Made by a program: the position numbers and the translations under genes. Of a stretch of 64,000 bases of DNA, positions 17,081-55,879 are shown piece by piece; position 1 is the first letter of the stretch; the number at the start of each line of letters is the position of its first letter. This DNA is from Hamiltosporidium tvaerminnensis. Its lineage: Eukaryota; Microsporidia; Dubosqiidae. The stretch covers positions 558,001 through 622,000 of the forward strand of contig JAKIMF020000011.1 in assembly GCA_022605425.2 (NCBI GenBank), given 5' to 3'. Under the pieces are notes generated by a model. That model was not told the origin of the DNA. It did no database searches and was given only the letters and a program-made list of their open reading frames with translations.

Positions 17081-18772
17081 ATGGTAGTTTTAAGTTTCAT
17101 TCGGTATATCATATTGCTGACATGTATTTATCGTACATTTGGTAGCATATCCGATACTACGCAAGTTACAGAGAAAAGTCAAGATATAAATCAACCTGGT
17201 GATAGAGTTTGTAAAAAGATTGATATCAAAAAAGTTACCGAAAGTAACCCAAAAAATACAGATATTAATCAGGCATATGAAGAAAATGATCGATATGTAG
17301 AGGATAACAAGAAGAATCAAGTTTTAGAATTAAAAGACCTTATTTGTATGCCGAACGATGAAACTAATAACCCTAAAAATAATATAACAAGAAATATATA
17401 CAATCATTTCCGTGCTACTCCTGCTCGAAATGCTCATTATTTTGAAAGAAAATATGAACATCCGACGGAATTCTATAATGAACAATTTTATCAAAACCAA
17501 CAAGCCCGATCATTTAATATGTACACAGTACACTCAAATCAAGTTTCTCATTTAACATCAAATGTATATACTTGGCATATTTATTATCCATCCTTTCAAT
17601 CCTCTTCAAATATTAGATTTGCCGAAGGACCTAAGGCTTTTGTTCCATGTATTCAGACAGATAGACTATTATCGGACAATGAAATAGTTAATTTTCTGTT
17701 CCACAGATTGAATTCTTTGAATTATTTCAGAAATTTCAGAGACTTTTTACCTCTCATCGAATATCATTATACGTTTAAAAACATCAAAAATGCCTCTGCA
17801 GTAATATTCCATTCAAGAATACTTGATAATATAAGAATCAATGAAATTCAAATAAAGGGATTTGCTAAAACAACGGATGAAGAAAGACTAAGAATTTGGT
17901 CACTTTTTAGTAAAAAATATTCAAAAATAAAAATAATAGATTTTGATTCTCCATTGATATCATTTTTTCCTGGAATTATAATGTTAAAAGATTTTATTTA
18001 CAAACTGCTCACAGAAAAACGGTTAAAAGAGAGGAATATATTTAATATTTTTGTTGGAATGAAAATTATAGAAAGCTTACTCTTTTCAAGCAAAGAAATG
18101 ATTGCTGGTTTATCTAAAGAAAACAGCTTAGACATATTTAGTTATGGGCACGGTGCTACAAATATAATTATCGCTCACAAAAGAATATTTTTTACAATAT
18201 TGAAAAAAATATTGTTTAAAAATTTTAATTTGTCAAAAAAATTTATAATAAGTTTACGAATAACTGAAATGGGATGTGTTTATCTTAGTAACGATAAATT
18301 ATATTTAAACAAAGCGAATAAATATCATTTCTTGCGTGCTTTAATAGATTCAATATATTTTTTGGATGATATGTTGATGAATACTGTTTCTAACATCTAT
18401 GAAAAAAGTATTATAGATGTAGATTTACAAACCGGATATGTGGCTCATATATTCTTTGATTTTTCAGAGCTAGAAAATTTTGAAATAGATCCAGACCTTT
18501 CTCTAAAGTTTATTAAATATTATTTGATTTTGTTGCAAAACGAGGAATTTATAAGTTCCGGAAATATCAATAAAATTGTTTTTAAGAATGTAATTGAAAA
18601 TTTAGCCATCGAAGTAGATAATGTTGAGAAAGAATTGACAAACTCGTGTTCTATCCAACCAAAAGAGCATATAAATTTGCTTTTCAAATGCTTGAGCATT
18701 TTTAATTTCATTATTAAATGTGAATACAATATAAATCTACATAATAGTCTATATTTAGAGCGAATATCATAA
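17081..18772 (+). CDS. Large secreted protein, member of a duplicated family (copy 1)
   Basis: Unrecognised 563-aa protein. Residues about 1-24 form a hydrophobic signal peptide ending in small residues ('FGSIS'). Residues 25-190 are polar, Asn/Gln/Tyr-rich and probably unstructured. Residues about 190-555 are a long folded-looking segment with many Phe, Ile and Leu residues and conserved Cys at the start ('VPCIQTDRLLS') and end. The start is the ATG abutting CCCC. A paralogue at 54172-55879 is about 70% identical by eye, with flanks also alignable for about 90 bp on each side, so the unit duplicated is about 1.9-2.1 kb. The conserved core and variable N-terminus suggest a host-exposed protein. 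No domain could be named. Confidence 0.85.
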   Translation: MVVLSFIRYIILLTCIYRTFGSISDTTQVTEKSQDINQPGDRVCKKIDIKKVTESNPKNTDINQAYEENDRYVEDNKKNQVLELKDLICMPNDETNNPKNNITRNIYNHFRATPARNAHYFERKYEHPTEFYNEQFYQNQQARSFNMYTVHSNQVSHLTSNVYTWHIYYPSFQSSSNIRFAEGPKAFVPCIQTDRLLSDNEIVNFLFHRLNSLNYFRNFRDFLPLIEYHYTFKNIKNASAVIFHSRILDNIRINEIQIKGFAKTTDEERLRIWSLFSKKYSKIKIIDFDSPLISFFPGIIMLKDFIYKLLTEKRLKERNIFNIFVGMKIIESLLFSSKEMIAGLSKENSLDIFSYGHGATNIIIAHKRIFFTILKKILFKNFNLSKKFIISLRITEMGCVYLSNDKLYLNKANKYHFLRALIDSIYFLDDMLMNTVSNIYEKSIIDVDLQTGYVAHIFFDFSELENFEIDPDLSLKFIKYYLILLQNEEFISSGNINKIVFKNVIENLAIEVDNVEKELTNSCSIQPKEHINLLFKCLSIFNFIIKCEYNINLHNSLYLERIS

Positions 18773-32844: not shown

Positions 32845-32901
32845 TAAAAACAGATCTCCCTCGAAAAAAAAGGATCCCTTTAAACAAAAATTAACTAAAA
32901 A
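32845..32901 (+). repeat. Left terminal inverted repeat
   Basis: Contains in order 'taaaaac', a gatct/ccctcga core, an A8 run, 'ggatcccttta', and 'aaaattaactaaaaa'. The reverse complement of 35907-35964 matches with a few substitutions and one-base indels, including A8 versus A9. Outside it the flanks no longer match, apart from a possible 'g' and 'taaaaac' edge. Confidence 0.85.
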
Positions 32902-32929
32902 TCAAAAATAAAAGAACTTCAAACACCTT

Positions 32930-34360
32930 TTAATTGAATTCGTTTAAGTTATCAGAAACGATTTTTAGATTCTTAAAGACTCTTATGGACTTTCTGTCAG
33001 CTGAACGCGTATGAGATTCATCGAGATTGAACTTGGCTTTAACATAGCTTTTGAATTCAGTAAACTTTGTACTATATTCTGGTTTTCTACAAACATCCTT
33101 TGAAGTATGTTCAGTGTCAAGTTCGTGATACATACAATAAACTTCAAAGAACGTGATGTAGCCATCTGTAGCTTCTTGTATAACATTTTCAAGAAACTTC
33201 ACAAAAGCCTTAAGTTCTCCGAATGCATAGGATAAATATCTCAAAAAAGTAGTTGGAATCTGCAGTTCTTTATTTATTGGCTCTTTTAAAATTAGTTGTA
33301 ATAGGCCTAGTCCTATTGCATGTCTTACAGATTCATTGGATAATTCAAGATGGTTTTTTATATTTTCTTTTATCGACAGATTCTTAGCAAAGTAAATGTA
33401 CTTCATTCTTCTTTCTAAAGCATAATCTACCACTGCCGAAAATTTAGGTAGGTTTTTACCAACGAATAACAGTCTAGTTTTGAAAGGGAAAGTAACTGGG
33501 TTAGCATATAGTGATCCTACCGTGATTCTTTCATACTTAGCAGGCCTTTTAATAATATCGACCCGAAGTATTTGAGAATCGTATTCCGCAACAACACCAA
33601 TCCTACAATTCCTGAGGTTTACAAAAAAGCGATTCATCGCTGAAGTTTTTGATTTTGACAGAGCTTTGACTGGTAAGTCACCAACTAAATTCTTTAAGGC
33701 TATTCTAAGCATGTTTATAAAAGTTTTTTTTCCGTTGGCACCTTCACCTATTAAGAAATACACTTTATCATTCGAATCATCAAATAATATTATTCTTAGT
33801 TCATTCAATACATATTCAATTTCACATTCATTTTTGAAGATGTTGTCAAGGAATAAATACGCTACTTTTTTATGATCTGAAAATAAAAGATCTTGTTCAG
33901 TAAAAGGTAGTGTGATGCTTATATAGTCGTCCAATTGGGTTTCTCTTATTCTTCTTAGTTCTGAGTCGAAAACACCTTTTTTTAGAGGGAGTAACTTAAA
34001 CTTAGTATTGAATTCCAAACCTTTTTCTTCGTCCCTGATATAAGGAAATAAAACAGACATAGTTGATTTGAGGAATCTGGGTGATTGAAGGCGTAAGCGC
34101 ATGGTACGATACTTAGTAAAGAGTCTATCTTGACAATCCTTAGCTGCATGCTGAGCTTTCAATAACTTCCGCGAACCATCCAATCCTTTAAGAAATTGTT
34201 CAGACAGATATGCTAAGATTCCAAGAGTTGCTTCCTTGTTGTACTCTTTGTATATGTTGTTAATATTTGCAACATATAAATTATCTCCAACCACAATAGC
34301 TCTTCCGTTAAATACCACCTTTAAGAACCTAGCAAACAACACAGGTGTAGGTGAATCCAT
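32930..34360 (-). CDS. D5-type superfamily 3 helicase (second ORF of the element)
   Basis: Predicted hexameric 3'-5' DNA helicase that unwinds the template ahead of the primase, 476 aa from the ATG at 34360. A D5_N-like helical region lies at about 120-200. Walker A 'GEGANGKKTF' is at 205-214, a Walker B-type 'GVVAEYDS' at 255-262, motif C 'LLFVGKNLPKF' with its Asn at about 297-307, and an arginine-finger-like 'ERRMKYIYF' at 316-324, all in the usual spacing. The frame overlaps the primase ORF by 40 nt in the -1 register and is open for only about 20 nt before its ATG. It may be made by -1 frameshifting, by re-initiation, or may be one gene split by a one-base indel. In relatives the two domains are normally one polypeptide. 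The stop lies 28 nt from the left terminal repeat. Confidence 0.85.
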   Translation of the reverse strand: MDSPTPVLFARFLKVVFNGRAIVVGDNLYVANINNIYKEYNKEATLGILAYLSEQFLKGLDGSRKLLKAQHAAKDCQDRLFTKYRTMRLRLQSPRFLKSTMSVLFPYIRDEEKGLEFNTKFKLLPLKKGVFDSELRRIRETQLDDYISITLPFTEQDLLFSDHKKVAYLFLDNIFKNECEIEYVLNELRIILFDDSNDKVYFLIGEGANGKKTFINMLRIALKNLVGDLPVKALSKSKTSAMNRFFVNLRNCRIGVVAEYDSQILRVDIIKRPAKYERITVGSLYANPVTFPFKTRLLFVGKNLPKFSAVVDYALERRMKYIYFAKNLSIKENIKNHLELSNESVRHAIGLGLLQLILKEPINKELQIPTTFLRYLSYAFGELKAFVKFLENVIQEATDGYITFFEVYCMYHELDTEHTSKDVCRKPEYSTKFTEFKSYVKAKFNLDESHTRSADRKSIRVFKNLKIVSDNLNEFN

Positions 34361-35892
34361 AAAAATCGTAAGAAGGAATCTTCACGGTCAAGGTCAGTTT
34401 CTAGTTTTGACTTCAAAAAATAACCCTCATCGTAGACTAATTCCATGTAGTTTGGCTTATTCGACATCTCATCCAAAGCCTCCATACAATTCCTATTCTT
34501 GTCAACTAGAAACGTGTTTATTGTCGTATTGAAAGTTATACTTTGATAGATGTTTACTTTTAGAAAATTTTTTGTGAAGCGTTTCAATTCTTTTTGACAT
34601 GCCGTTATATGCTTTTCTTTTGGGAATAGATGCTCAATACTTTTATCTTGTGATATCACAGAATATGAACAATCAGACAGATTGTTATATGTGTCCATGT
34701 TAATACTTTCAATTCCTAAAAATTCCTTTACCTGTTCGGGTGAACCAACCTTTGAATGTACGCTCCTTTCTGAACGATTATATACTGGCAAGCCAGCCTC
34801 AGGATCCTTCGATAAAAATAGGTTATGGGTATTACTTAATAGTTGTTTCTGTAATACATTACCCCTAAACAGTGCGAATATTTCATCCTTACTTAAGACA
34901 TCCTTAAGCACCACTTCAACAATTTTATTTTTTGACGTAAGTCTACAACCATGACACTTTAAGCTTGCAGAAACAACAGTTATTCTAAGATACGTCTTAT
35001 TTGATTTATGCATTACGTTAAAGGGGCACACATCCAAGGGTTCGATGTCAACATAGATAACCATCAAACCATCCTTGATTTCGCTCTCTCTCGCTCCGTA
35101 TATCTTCTTGTACTTAAAACCAAACTTTGCCAGCAACTTGACAAAAATAGTATCTCTTGGATCTGCATTCCCACTTTCGCTTTCGATACTTCCGTTATTT
35201 GAAGTTAAACTAGATCCCTCTTCAAATGCAATGAGATTTTTGCTGGCAAGAAATGTTCTGATACAAAGGCCTAGTTCACCGGGCCACTGAACGAAATGCT
35301 CGATAAGGTCAAGTTCTTTTCTAGGTCCGGTGTGTTTAGCATCAAATACTAATTTACCGTCAACCTTTTCTTTAGATGCCCCGAACGCCCTTAAGAGACA
35401 ACCACCGGGTTTATACACGTTCAAATCAACGCCTGGCAAATTTAAATGTTCGCGGACAAACGACAAAACCTCTGAAACGTTCATAAATACATACTCCTTT
35501 CCTTCTTTAAATAGTCTGACGATCATATGTTTCGAAAACTTTTCCTTACCAGTAGCATCTGAGACGATAAACTGAATATCAAACCCTGAAAAATAACCCT
35601 TTACAAATCTTTTGATGTCATCTACAAGGCTATCGAGTTGAAATTCTTTGCTGTGTAAATCAAAAAACAGAACCACTTTAGCATTCGCTCTTATAAATTC
35701 ATTAAAGTAGCCTTTAGGTATTTCTTGTTTGTAGAGTTCAAGAAAGTTGTCTTTGCCAGATATTGTCATTCTTTTTCCAAAAATTGACGTGGTGTAGCCA
35801 AAAACCAAATTTTCTTCGTGCCACTCATCTATAACTGTTTCAAGTTCAAATTCGCTCCCGGGTTCCTCATTCGTCTTTTTTATGGTTTTCAT
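34321..35892 (-). CDS. Archaeo-eukaryotic-type primase (first ORF of the element)
   Basis: Predicted DNA primase/primase-polymerase of 523 aa, related to the N-terminal half of viral D5-like primase-helicases. The hydrophobic strand 'VVLFFDLH' (73-80) fits catalytic motif I, although the second acidic residue is His. 'FSKHMIVRLF' (119-128) fits the sxH motif. 'GVDLNVYKPGGCLLRAFGASK' (154-174) fits motif III and the following Arg/Lys segment. A zinc knuckle of the kind found after such primases is formed by Cys289, His295, Cys313 and Cys316. Residues 330-520 link to the helicase. The ATG at 35892 directly follows CCC (35893-35895 on plus), the same start signal as the host genes. It ends at a TAA (34321-34323), 40 nt into the helicase frame. 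Confidence 0.8.
   Translation of the reverse strand: MKTIKKTNEEPGSEFELETVIDEWHEENLVFGYTTSIFGKRMTISGKDNFLELYKQEIPKGYFNEFIRANAKVVLFFDLHSKEFQLDSLVDDIKRFVKGYFSGFDIQFIVSDATGKEKFSKHMIVRLFKEGKEYVFMNVSEVLSFVREHLNLPGVDLNVYKPGGCLLRAFGASKEKVDGKLVFDAKHTGPRKELDLIEHFVQWPGELGLCIRTFLASKNLIAFEEGSSLTSNNGSIESESGNADPRDTIFVKLLAKFGFKYKKIYGARESEIKDGLMVIYVDIEPLDVCPFNVMHKSNKTYLRITVVSASLKCHGCRLTSKNKIVEVVLKDVLSKDEIFALFRGNVLQKQLLSNTHNLFLSKDPEAGLPVYNRSERSVHSKVGSPEQVKEFLGIESINMDTYNNLSDCSYSVISQDKSIEHLFPKEKHITACQKELKRFTKNFLKVNIYQSITFNTTINTFLVDKNRNCMEALDEMSNKPNYMELVYDEGYFLKSKLETDLDREDSFLRFLWIHLHLCCLLGS
34361..34365 (-). other. Five-T run at the junction of the primase and helicase frames
   Basis: On the coding strand the junction reads 'CGATTTTTATGG': in the primase frame the codons are TTT TTA, and the helicase ATG starts on the last A of TTA. 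A -1 slip on A-TTT-TTA would fuse the two ORFs without loss. Six Ts instead of five would make the reading frame continuous by itself. The heptamer resembles but does not equal the canonical T-TTT-TTA slippery site. Confidence 0.5.
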
Positions 35893-35895
35893 GGG
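35893..35895 (-). promoter_or_regulatory. CCC start signal of the primase ORF
   Basis: CCC abuts the ATG on the coding strand, as at UPF1 and the large paralogues. It falls in the 14-nt gap between the right terminal repeat and the start codon, so any core promoter must lie within or beyond the repeat. Confidence 0.55.
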
Positions 35896-35906
35896 TTAGA
35901 AATACC

Positions 35907-35964
35907 TTTTTTAGTTATTTCTGTGTAAAGGGATCCTTTTTTTTTCGAGGGGGATCCGTTTTTA
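35907..35964 (-). repeat. Right terminal inverted repeat
   Basis: Reads, as reverse complement, 'taaaaacggatccccctcg', A9, 'ggatccctttacacagaaat' and 'aactaaaaa'. It contains two GGATCC words flanking the ctcgA9 core; the left copy keeps only the inner one. Its inner end lies 14 nt from the primase start codon. Confidence 0.85.
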
Positions 35965-37909
35965 GTCGGCTTGTTAACACATCTTAATTATTAGCAGGAT
36001 TTTCGAGTTTCCAGAATTGAAGTTAGTCTGGCTAAAGGCGCGAGAAAAAAATACAGTCAAAAAAAGCAAGGTATATTGGAGATAACAGGTGTCTTGTTGT
36101 ATACAAGAAGCATTATGGAACATCTAGTTCTGAAAATAAAAAATTTGGAAGAAAAAAAGAATAATTAGAAGCGAAATTGAAATCTTAAGAAATGAATCAG
36201 AGCAATGAAGGCATTCTGATATGTAAAATTGATTGAATTAATTTTTAGAGATAATATGCGGATATATTTTTTGCTAATTATGAAATGTATTATAGGTGAA
36301 AAGAAGAGAACCACAATAAAAACCATCTGCTTCGTAACGAGTATGTAAAATTCGTGTGAATATGATTGCTTTTTGGTAAATATAAACCACATCGGATCTA
36401 TAGGCCGATCCTTCTATAATCCGAGTTACAATAGATTAAAAGAAACAAATGAATGTTTTTCATTTGTTCATCCTCGACATTGAGAAATAAAACAGGAATG
36501 GAATAAATAAGTAAAAAGGAATATATTCTAAATTAACAAACGATTCATGTTTTGAAAGTTTTGAAAAGCATAGTCTTTTTTACTGCTTAATTCATTCTCT
36601 TTATTATATTCTAATTTTTTAATAATTAATATAAAATTTATGAACGGCGAATAACAAAAATTCTACACCAGTGTAGTGTTTAATGTATTTTCATGTAGCC
36701 TATAAAACACGGTAAGCGTAAAAATGTATTCTTGAAACCATTTCTGTATGGAAAATAATATATTCATTTCTAAAAACAAAGTTAGACCGCTAGAAAATGT
36801 TTTGAATTGGTTTTAGCAGATAAATAAAGATTTTATAACAGAAAAATGCTAATTAGATTGTGTAAATAATTTATTTGTGAATTGTTTATGATACAAAGAT
36901 AAAACATGGAATTCAATTTAAAAACTTTGATAATTTGATAGCTTATGCTTTAAAGTTTTAGTAAAAAAAAGTGTTAGAAATTCTTTGATGTAATATATTT
37001 TGTTTACTAGGAGTTTTTTACGCACTTAGGTAGTTTTGTCAAGTAACTGAAGTTATGAATACGACAGAATTTAAGAATACCTAGAGATCTGAGTAAAAAG
37101 AAATAAATAGTCATTTGATACATGAATAGCATGACTCAAAATCAATTACGTTTTTTTATAAATGTTTAGACTTTATATTAGTTTAAAATGTATAATAAAC
37201 GAAAGCGAATATACTGCGAACTTTTTATCAATTTAATCATTAATAACTCAGATTGATTTGATATAGAGACTTCTTAACACTGTTTTAAGGTGTTTACAAC
37301 CAACTAGGATATAATAAATTCATTTACTCAATTAAAATTCTTATTTATTTAAAATACCTGTATTTTTTTAGATGAAAATTTTTTTGCTTTTAGAAAAGTT
37401 ACTAAGTTGCCCTAATATTCTTAGAAAAACCCAATTTAATTGCTGTCATAGGTTATGATTACATTTATTAAAATTTAGTTAAAACAATATACAAATCTAA
37501 TCTGATAAATACGGTTGAAAATCAATTTAAATGTACTATATATTATATTATTATGAGCATTTAGGCTCGAAATCAATTCATACCCAGGAACTCAATTCAA
37601 TATTACAAATAGTTGCCTAACCTCGACCAAATCATTTTTTTTATCATTAAAACTCCCATAATTTTTTTTTCCGAAAAATAGAAGTCAAGAATCGAGTATT
37701 ACACAATTGAAAAACCTGCTGTAATTGAATAAATAAATTCCACTAGAATAATATTTAAAAGAATTAATGTTTCATTGTTTAAAGTATAAAAGAGTAGATC
37801 ATAAACAAAAAAATTATTATTATGTTCTATTTTGTTTTTATAAACATTCTAATTTGTTATTTCGATAAGAAATTTTGAAACAAGTTTTAAAAAATTATTA
37901 TATAAGCGA
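35965..37909. other. Gene-poor region after the element
   Basis: No supported gene. A family C copy (C3) lies at about 36295-36517. The remainder is AT-rich. No sequence similar to the left flank of the element was found immediately outside the right repeat. Confidence 0.55.
36295..36517 (+). repeat. Family C interspersed repeat (copy C3)
   Basis: Shares 'aaaaaccatctgcttcgtaa', 'tataaaccacatcgg', 'gagttacaatagattaaaag', 'ttgttcatcctcgac', 'attgagaaataaaacagga' and an 'aataaataagtaa' tail with C1 and C2. It lies 330 bp outside the right end of the primase-helicase element, in the same orientation as C1. Confidence 0.75.
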
Positions 37910-54171: not shown

Positions 54172-55879
54172 ATGATAGTTTTGTGTTTTATCAGAAGTAT
54201 TTTTTTTACTGAGATATATAAATCTTCAGTTTGCTGCCGTGTCTCATAACATCCAGGTTCAAGATAAATGTCAGAATATAAATGAATCTGATGATCGAGA
54301 ATACAGAAAGGATGATATTGAAAAAAGCCAAGAAAAAAATTCGGAAAAAAGAAATTTAGACCAGGGATACAAAATTAGGGAGACATGCGTCGAAGAAAAC
54401 AAACCCAATCAGGTTTTGAGATTAAAAGCCATTAGTAATATCCCGACTGATGAGGGTAATATTGGAAAAAACGATTTAACAATGAATACTTATAATAATT
54501 GCGAGGCTATTCCTGCTCGAAATACCTATTTATTTCAAAATAATTATGAAAATCCGGCAGCATACTATAATCAACAAATTTATCAAAGCCAAAAAGCCCG
54601 ATCATTTAATATGTACGAAACATCCCCAAATAGATTTTCTCATTCAACTTCGACTGTATATCCTTGGTTTACTAATTATGCGCCCTCTCAATCTTCTTCA
54701 AATATTAGTTACGCCTACGGACTCAAGGCTTTTGTTTCTTGCATTCAAACAGATAGACTATTATCGGAGACCGAATTAGTTAATTATGTTTTCACCTCAT
54801 TAAATTCTTTGAATTATTTCACAAATTTTAGAGATCTTTTACCTCTCATCGAATATCATTATACGTTTAAAAACATCAAAAATGCCTCTGCAGTAATATT
54901 ACATTCAAGAATACTTGATAATATAAGAATCAATGAAATGCGAATTAAAAAAATTACAAAAACAGCGGATGAAGACATGCAAAGAAACTGGTCTCTTTTT
55001 ACTGAAAAATTTTCAAAAATAAAAATAATAGATTATGATTCTCCGTTGGTATCATTTTTTCCTGGAATTATAATGTTGAAAGATTTTATTTACAAATTGC
55101 TTTTAGGAAAGGTGTTACAAGACAGAAATATATTCAATATTTTTGTTGGAATGAAAATGATAGAAAGCTTACTCTTTTCAAGCAAAGAAATGATTTCTAG
55201 TTTTTGTAACGAAAACAGCTTAGACATATTTAGTTATGGGCACGGTGCTAAAAACATAATAAACGTTCACAAGAAAATGTTTTTTACAATATTGAAAAAA
55301 ATATTATGTAAAAACTTTAATTTGTCAAGAAATTTTTTTATTACCCTAAGAATTACCGAAATAGGATGCGATTATCTTAGTGACGATAAATTATACCTAA
55401 ACAAAGCGTATAAATGCCATTTTTTGCGTACTTTTATAGATTCAATATTTTTTTTAGATGATGTGTTGATGAATACTGTTTCTAACATCTATGAAAAAAG
55501 TATTATAGATGTAGATTTACAAACCGGATTTGTAGTTCATACATTCTTTGATTTTTCAATACTAGAAAAAATTGAAATAGTTCCGGGCCTTTCTCTAAAG
55601 TTTATTAAATATTATTTAATTTTGTTGCAAAAAGAGGAATTTATAAGTTCTGGAAATATCAATCAAATAGTTTTTAAGGATGTAATTGAAAATTTAACCA
55701 TCGAAGTAGATAATTTTGAGAAAGAATTGACAAAACCGTGTTCTAGCCAGCCAAAAGAGCCTATAAATTTGCTTTTCAAATGCTTGTGCATTTTTAATTT
55801 CATTATTAAATGTGGGTTCAATAGAAATATACATAATAGTCTATATTTAGAGCGGATATCAGAAATATCAATTTTATGA
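54172..55879 (+). pseudogene. Large secreted protein family, copy 2, with a T-run frameshift
   Basis: Paralogue of 17081-18772. The ATG at 54172 opens a signal peptide matching copy 1 for about 10 codons, then an 8-T run (54200-54207) shifts the frame and a stop follows. With 7 Ts the frame would run through to 55879. The long open frame after the run (readable from 54239) encodes 546 aa with the same layout: polar N-terminal part, then a conserved core with 'SCIQTDRLLS', 'LPLIEYHYTF' and 'DIFSYGHGAKN'. The remaining 540 codons are free of stops, which argues against an old pseudogene. A sequencing indel, a recent mutation or tolerated slippage at the T run are all possible. Upstream and downstream flanks align with copy 1. 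No function recognised. Confidence 0.75.

Follow-up and report, generated by a model that had tools for sequence, protein, structure and literature searches.

A 3.1-kb element in the genome of Hamiltosporidium tvaerminnensis, a microsporidian that parasitises Daphnia (water fleas), carries one gene between terminal inverted repeats of 57 nt. The gene appears to encode a primase fused to a D5/P4-type superfamily 3 (SF3) helicase. We consider that the element is best explained as a decayed insertion of a small Hamiltosporidium mobile replicon with this single fused gene, a reading to which we assign a probability of about 0.45. The element (positions 32845-35964) lies in the window, i.e., the 64,000-nt stretch of DNA analyzed here, which corresponds to positions 558001-622000 of contig C16 in a genome of 21,638,905 bases and 17 contigs. 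The G+C content is 34.6% inside the element as compared with 27.9 and 23.6% in the 3 kb on either side, and a search for RNA families across the window found none. The features of the element are listed in Table 1.

Table 1. Features of the H. tvaerminnensis element (positions within the window).
Feature	Position	Strand	Basis
Left arm of terminal inverted repeat, 57 nt; outer end TAAAAAC	32845..32901	+	sequence alignment
3′ part of split primase-helicase gene, 476 aa; D5/P4-type SF3 helicase (DUF5906 above cut-off)	32930..34360	-	ORF, profiles
5′ part of split primase-helicase gene, 523 aa; AEP-like primase domain (PPL4, below Pfam cut-off), C-H-C-C pattern	34321..35892	-	ORF, profile, motifs
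Right arm of terminal inverted repeat, 57 nt; gapped identity to left arm, 90%	35908..35964	-	sequence alignment

The inverted repeat is far above chance expectation. When the two arms are aligned, 52 of 58 columns are identical, with two gaps and four substitutions (90% identity gapped, 77% ungapped), and a genome-wide DNA search with the whole element detects the similarity of the arms with an E value of 1.9e-11. The end regions give a Smith-Waterman score of 82, whereas 1000 dinucleotide shuffles reach at most 38, and 875 control pairs taken from the window at about equal spacing reach at most 31. The original prediction of ~57-bp inverted repeats at both ends is thus confirmed. Moreover, among the eight inverted pairs in the window that are at least 40 nt long and at most 8 kb apart, the pair bounding the element is the longest and the most complementary. 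The similarity begins at the sequence TAAAAAC on both sides and ends abruptly inward. Hairpin folding of the arms is weak; 29 and 30 of 200 shuffles folded equally well.

Throughout the genome, a 22-nt outer pattern with up to three mismatches finds both arms and no other site, and a 24-nt left-arm pattern with the same tolerance finds only the left arm. The right arm escaped the latter pattern owing to an additional base, as would similar indel variants elsewhere. A DNA search of the genome with the whole element revealed its ends at no second locus. A profile of the arms has strong matches in the window at the two arms only; two weak matches fall inside the element (E values of 0.03 and 0.8). 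As to the target site, the flanks share no direct repeat except TA, which is ambiguous as a duplication because TA is its own reverse complement.

The interior of the element is filled by two ORFs that approach the arms to within 15 and 28 nt and overlap each other by 40 nt in different frames. This layout agrees with what had been predicted; the view that the ORFs encode two proteins does not stand. The two ORFs represent one split primase-helicase gene, since two database proteins, P0007 (H. magnivora, 987 aa) and P0006 (another H. tvaerminnensis record, 887 aa), span both in a single frame, which rules out two separate genes. The first and second ORFs are 80 and 93% identical to P0007, respectively. 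The frame split may be a true lesion or an assembly error; a frameshift site is less likely. Immediately 5′ of the ATG of the upstream ORF (34321-35892) is a CCC, which is found in the same place in two of eight other ORFs in the window and within 10 nt in a third. Apart from the split gene, the only ORFs of at least 80 aa between the repeats are two short ones of 92 and 85 aa in antisense orientation, which probably are due to chance. No gene for an integrase, recombinase, nuclease, capsid, transposase, polymerase B, or ATPase, and no other viral gene, was recognized between the repeats, in keeping with the earlier statement that the element has no integrase.

Several profiles assign the C-terminal half of the protein to the D5/P4-type SF3 helicases. 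The Pfam family PF19263 (DUF5906) scores 30.4 bits with the window ORF, above the cut-off of 27.6; P0006 and P0001 score 39.3 and 41.4 bits, respectively, and P0003, which has a partial domain, scores 24.8 bits and is below the cut-off. The P4-family model TIGR01613 matches P0007 (E = 1.3e-16) and P0006 (E = 4.6e-20), both under the curated cut-off of the model. In addition, this half matches PHROG primases and helicases (P0006 versus PHROG primases with E values down to 2.1e-23), and a profile of the family matches solved chains of poxvirus D5 (E = 1.5e-4), the sole kind of solved structure matched. The D5-type SF3 helicase of the original prediction is therefore confirmed by several profiles.

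For the helicase motifs, we presume the names and limits of Walker A, Walker B, B′, and motif C in the family alignment. Walker A, B′, and motif C are altered both in the window copy and in P0007. Their family forms are kept in P0001, P0002, and P0006, and P0003, which ends short of Walker A, likewise keeps B′ and motif C. The changes are thus common to the window copy and P0007 and absent from the other lineages, so they probably predate the parting of this pair. Such common changes affect 8 of 33 columns in the SF3 motifs versus 17 of 161 otherwise invariant columns, a weak enrichment (p = 0.045) for which the motif limits were set after the alignment was viewed and P0003, comprising the helicase end only, was left out of the motif and invariance counts.

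The N-terminal half is a probable archaeo-eukaryotic-type primase domain, as judged from one Pfam match below the cut-off and a pattern of motifs. The match, to the prim-pol family PPL4, is the only profile match in this half and amounts to 21.2-22.8 bits for the window pieces, 17.0 bits for P0006, and 20.3 bits for P0007, relative to a cut-off of 25. The conserved pattern comprises DxD, SxH, and VDxxVY with a following Arg, and then C-H-C-C, which we take to fit PrimPol/UL52-like primases. A search of solved structures with the primase part gave no primase and nothing meaningful. The primase that had been predicted is retained in a weaker form than the helicase. Primase motif I is altered in the window copy and intact in P0006 and P0007; this change probably came later than those in the helicase motifs.

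Genome searches with P0006 and with DUF5906 detect the gene at two loci only, in the window (C16) and on contig C5 (~124945-127333). The C5 copy is truncated at both ends, and its helicase is 61% identical to that of the window copy. Its helicase frame is open (554 aa; P0001), and there are stops in its primase part. Terminal repeats were sought in 9.9 kb around the C5 copy, also with the profile of the arms, and none were found. The expectation of further copies at other loci therefore holds for the protein, which has a diverged and decayed relative on C5 and other lineages in Hamiltosporidium records, and fails for the repeats.

Searches of ~5.8 billion protein clusters, each scoring the ~8000 candidates that shared most words, identified relatives from Hamiltosporidium together with one distant protein, P0004 (E = 1e-5), which was left out of the family counts; the deepest of these searches, with an alignment as query, gave relatives in Hamiltosporidium only. 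P0001 and P0002 form one lineage present in two species, while P0003, P0006, and the pair of the window copy and P0007 constitute other lineages. The lineages are mutually 56-69% identical across the helicase, and records of different isolates and species carry different lineages. In P0003, from H. magnivora, the end of the helicase is joined to another gene. The counterpart of that gene here is located 2.3 kb downstream of the C5 copy and has no such helicase sequence beside it; the junction in P0003 could also have arisen during assembly of the H. magnivora record. No relative was confirmed in IMG/VR (three scans with two to six short peptide patterns each) or in prokaryote genomes (a few short patterns). 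Among phages, a tblastn search with P0006 gave matches to the helicase only, with 22-24% identity over 32-36% of P0006 in the best 20 of 209 records.

Comparison of the C16 and C5 copies, the only two used in the selection tests, gives a pS of 0.775 and a pN of 0.241 over 387 aligned helicase codons. The pN/pS ratio is thus ~0.31 (0.26-0.36 in 300 bootstraps), and third positions differ at 59% and second positions at 19%. In the primase blocks (184 codons, two stops dropped), pS and pN are 0.827 and 0.241, respectively. The combination of saturated pS and low pN indicates that purifying selection acted on the protein through most of its past and that both copies died late. The window copy looks dead, to judge from its split frame and altered primase motif I, Walker A, B′, and motif C; the idea of an intact minimal replicon does not hold for this degenerate copy.

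The window copy and P0007 differ at 126 of 985 columns, and the differences are clustered. In six successive blocks, 204 of 208, 86 of 142, 124 of 159, 351 of 369, 46 of 59, and 45 of 45 residues are identical (98, 61, 78, 95, 78, and 100%, respectively), a degree of clustering that was reached by none of 2000 shuffles, with block limits chosen after the alignment was viewed and shuffles that ignore uneven constraint. The simplest cause suggested by this pattern is that copies already diverged recombined with each other. Uneven constraint may account for some of the clustering, since the block 209-350 is poorly conserved between other lineages too.

How would such an element have worked? In the model that we favor, the primase-helicase would have recognized and opened the repeat ends, primed the synthesis of a short form, linear or excised, and driven it together with a host DNA polymerase. 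Copies would have entered chromosomes at a TA target, or without target duplication, and the chromosomal copies would be dead ends that insertion left behind. We infer the extrachromosomal form, the action of the repeats as origins, the route of insertion, and mobility by way of the repeats; the mechanism is favored because of the family to which the gene belongs and the fit of the repeats to the gene. The tight and nonrandom repeats that enclose one gene, and the existence of full-length relatives in a single frame, argue for the replicon. The same applies to the H. magnivora copy P0003, which adjoins a gene that has no such copy at the matching place here. Further points in favor are the profile matches, the purifying selection on the protein, the several diverged lineages, the clustered differences between the window copy and P0007, and a G+C content above that of the flanks. 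Against the replicon, the repeats were found at one locus only, the C5 copy is without them in the 9.9 kb examined, and both copies in the genome are degenerate. Moreover, the window copy and P0007 have alterations in three SF3 motifs, TA is the only, and ambiguous, candidate for a target duplication, and no recombinase, nuclease, or capsid gene is recognized inside. The lower PPL4 scores of P0006 and P0007 also count against the primase part of this reading.

We consider three alternatives less probable, the first of which, although unlikely, is the strongest. The element might descend from a larger DNA virus or polinton-like virus, either as a remnant or through internal deletion, with the repeats and the replication gene kept and the capsid, polymerase, and integrase genes lost or never integrated. 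Large DNA viruses and polinton-like viruses use primase-SF3 fusions as replication modules. Poxvirus D5 is the one kind of solved structure matched, and the gene family is old, patchy, and rich in lineages, as viral genes are. As in the D5/NCLDV-type primase-helicases, a primase-like domain precedes a D5-type SF3 helicase that aligns to D5 in one polypeptide. However, the match is distant (E ~1e-4, helicase only), and the element is one gene between 57-nt repeats with no virus genome recognized around it: Pfam recognizes no viral gene in eight of the nine other window ORFs of at least 120 aa (the ninth, which overlaps another, was left out), and IMG/VR yielded no relative in the scans mentioned above. 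In addition, repeats that enclose one gene this closely seem too neat for a random deletion. Genome searches for the protein-primed polymerase B (PF03175) and the NCLDV capsid (PF04451) gave one match below the cut-off and none, respectively; these searches are weak evidence because none of 14 control genomes matched in either. The P4-family primases of phages and plasmids (TIGR01613, PHROG 1156/6088) share the SF3 helicase domain and give the best profile scores, but the relatives of the element fall under the curated TIGR01613 cut-off, the primase part is unmatched, and the host is a eukaryote. Polintons/Mavericks, polinton-like viruses, and virophages are comparable with respect to their ends; this group has terminal inverted repeats, and polinton-like viruses carry primase-SF3 replication genes. 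The element differs from them in its size of 3.1 kb and its single gene, with no polymerase B, integrase, ATPase, or capsid recognized and no 5-6 bp target duplication.

Less probable still is that the gene belongs to a host family that was acquired from a virus or phage and retained for a function in the cell, and that the inverted repeat surrounds one copy by chance. Purifying selection would be expected of such a gene, and the CCC directly before the ATG recurs in two of eight other window ORFs. The altered SF3 motifs are common to P0007 from a second species, with an annotated frame open for 987 codons, and could mean a changed, non-helicase function. Nevertheless, with both genome copies broken the protein seems to be dispensable here, the lineage present varies among the records of different isolates and species, and the repeat is far above chance expectation. 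Slightly behind comes a cut-and-paste transposon frame, TA-targeting (Tc1/mariner-like) or other, that captured the primase-helicase, its movement being due to a transposase encoded elsewhere in the genome and acting in trans. Class II DNA transposons usually consist of one gene flanked by short terminal repeats, the outermost bases permit a TA target duplication, and DNA transposons make up ~7% of the H. tvaerminnensis genome according to the genome paper (PMC10542269), but the gene is of the replication type, no transposase is recognized in the element, and its ends are found at no other locus with up to three mismatches (indel variants would escape).

Returning to the small replicon, we regard it as doubtful, yet worth considering, that the element stands for an undescribed class: single-gene primase-helicase replicons with short inverted ends, existing as small nuclear linear DNAs, integrating without a transposase of their own and now decaying in Hamiltosporidium. 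Eukaryotic primase-helicase genes of the D5 kind are known mainly within large viral or virus-like genomes. Searches of the literature (preprints outside the scope) on transposable elements, viruses, and primases of microsporidia and Hamiltosporidium gave no report of such an element among the matches listed, nor did those on primase-SF3 elements with terminal inverted repeats, linear plasmids, Polinton/Maverick elements, and fungal AEP elements, in agreement with the earlier remark that no described microsporidian element of this design is known. If such a class exists, a unit that consists of one gene and its own ends would reveal how little DNA suffices for self-copying in eukaryotes, and DNA viruses, linear plasmids, and transposons would be connected by a further link. 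A long coexistence of a microsporidian lineage with such elements would be implied as well.

The gene at C5:129617-130468, on another contig of the same genome, has as its Hamiltosporidium magnivora counterpart a protein (P0003) in which this gene is fused with the helicase end of a primase-helicase. The C5 gene is interrupted by a stretch carrying two in-frame stops that is absent from P0003 and is either a lesion or an intron. A weaker relative (27%) is present on contig C17.

Each terminal repeat arm of the element contains the 6-nt palindrome NGATCN, and two of the four inter-arm substitutions preserve it in both arms, which may be due to chance. For microsporidian genes, PMC4589312 names a CCC-like motif, to which the CCC immediately preceding the start codon of the primase ORF is similar; CCC also lies directly before the start of two of eight other ORFs in the window, and ≤10 nt away in a third.

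The right flank of the element carries an old interspersed repeat with at least 40 further genomic matches at 71-82% identity (40 scored out of 345 candidates).

Elsewhere in the window, two ORFs without a Pfam match are, as judged by eye, alike across most of their length and constitute a local gene family.

Coordinates of the features discussed
Feature	Position	Remark
ORF, 563 aa	window 17081-18772	related to 54482-55879
ORF, 465 aa	window 54482-55879	related to 17081-18772
Gene with P0003 as counterpart	C5:129617-130468	2418-3269 of C5 stretch L040
NGATCN	window 32852-32857, 35952-35957	
CCC	window 35893-35895	
Interspersed repeat	window 36275-36534
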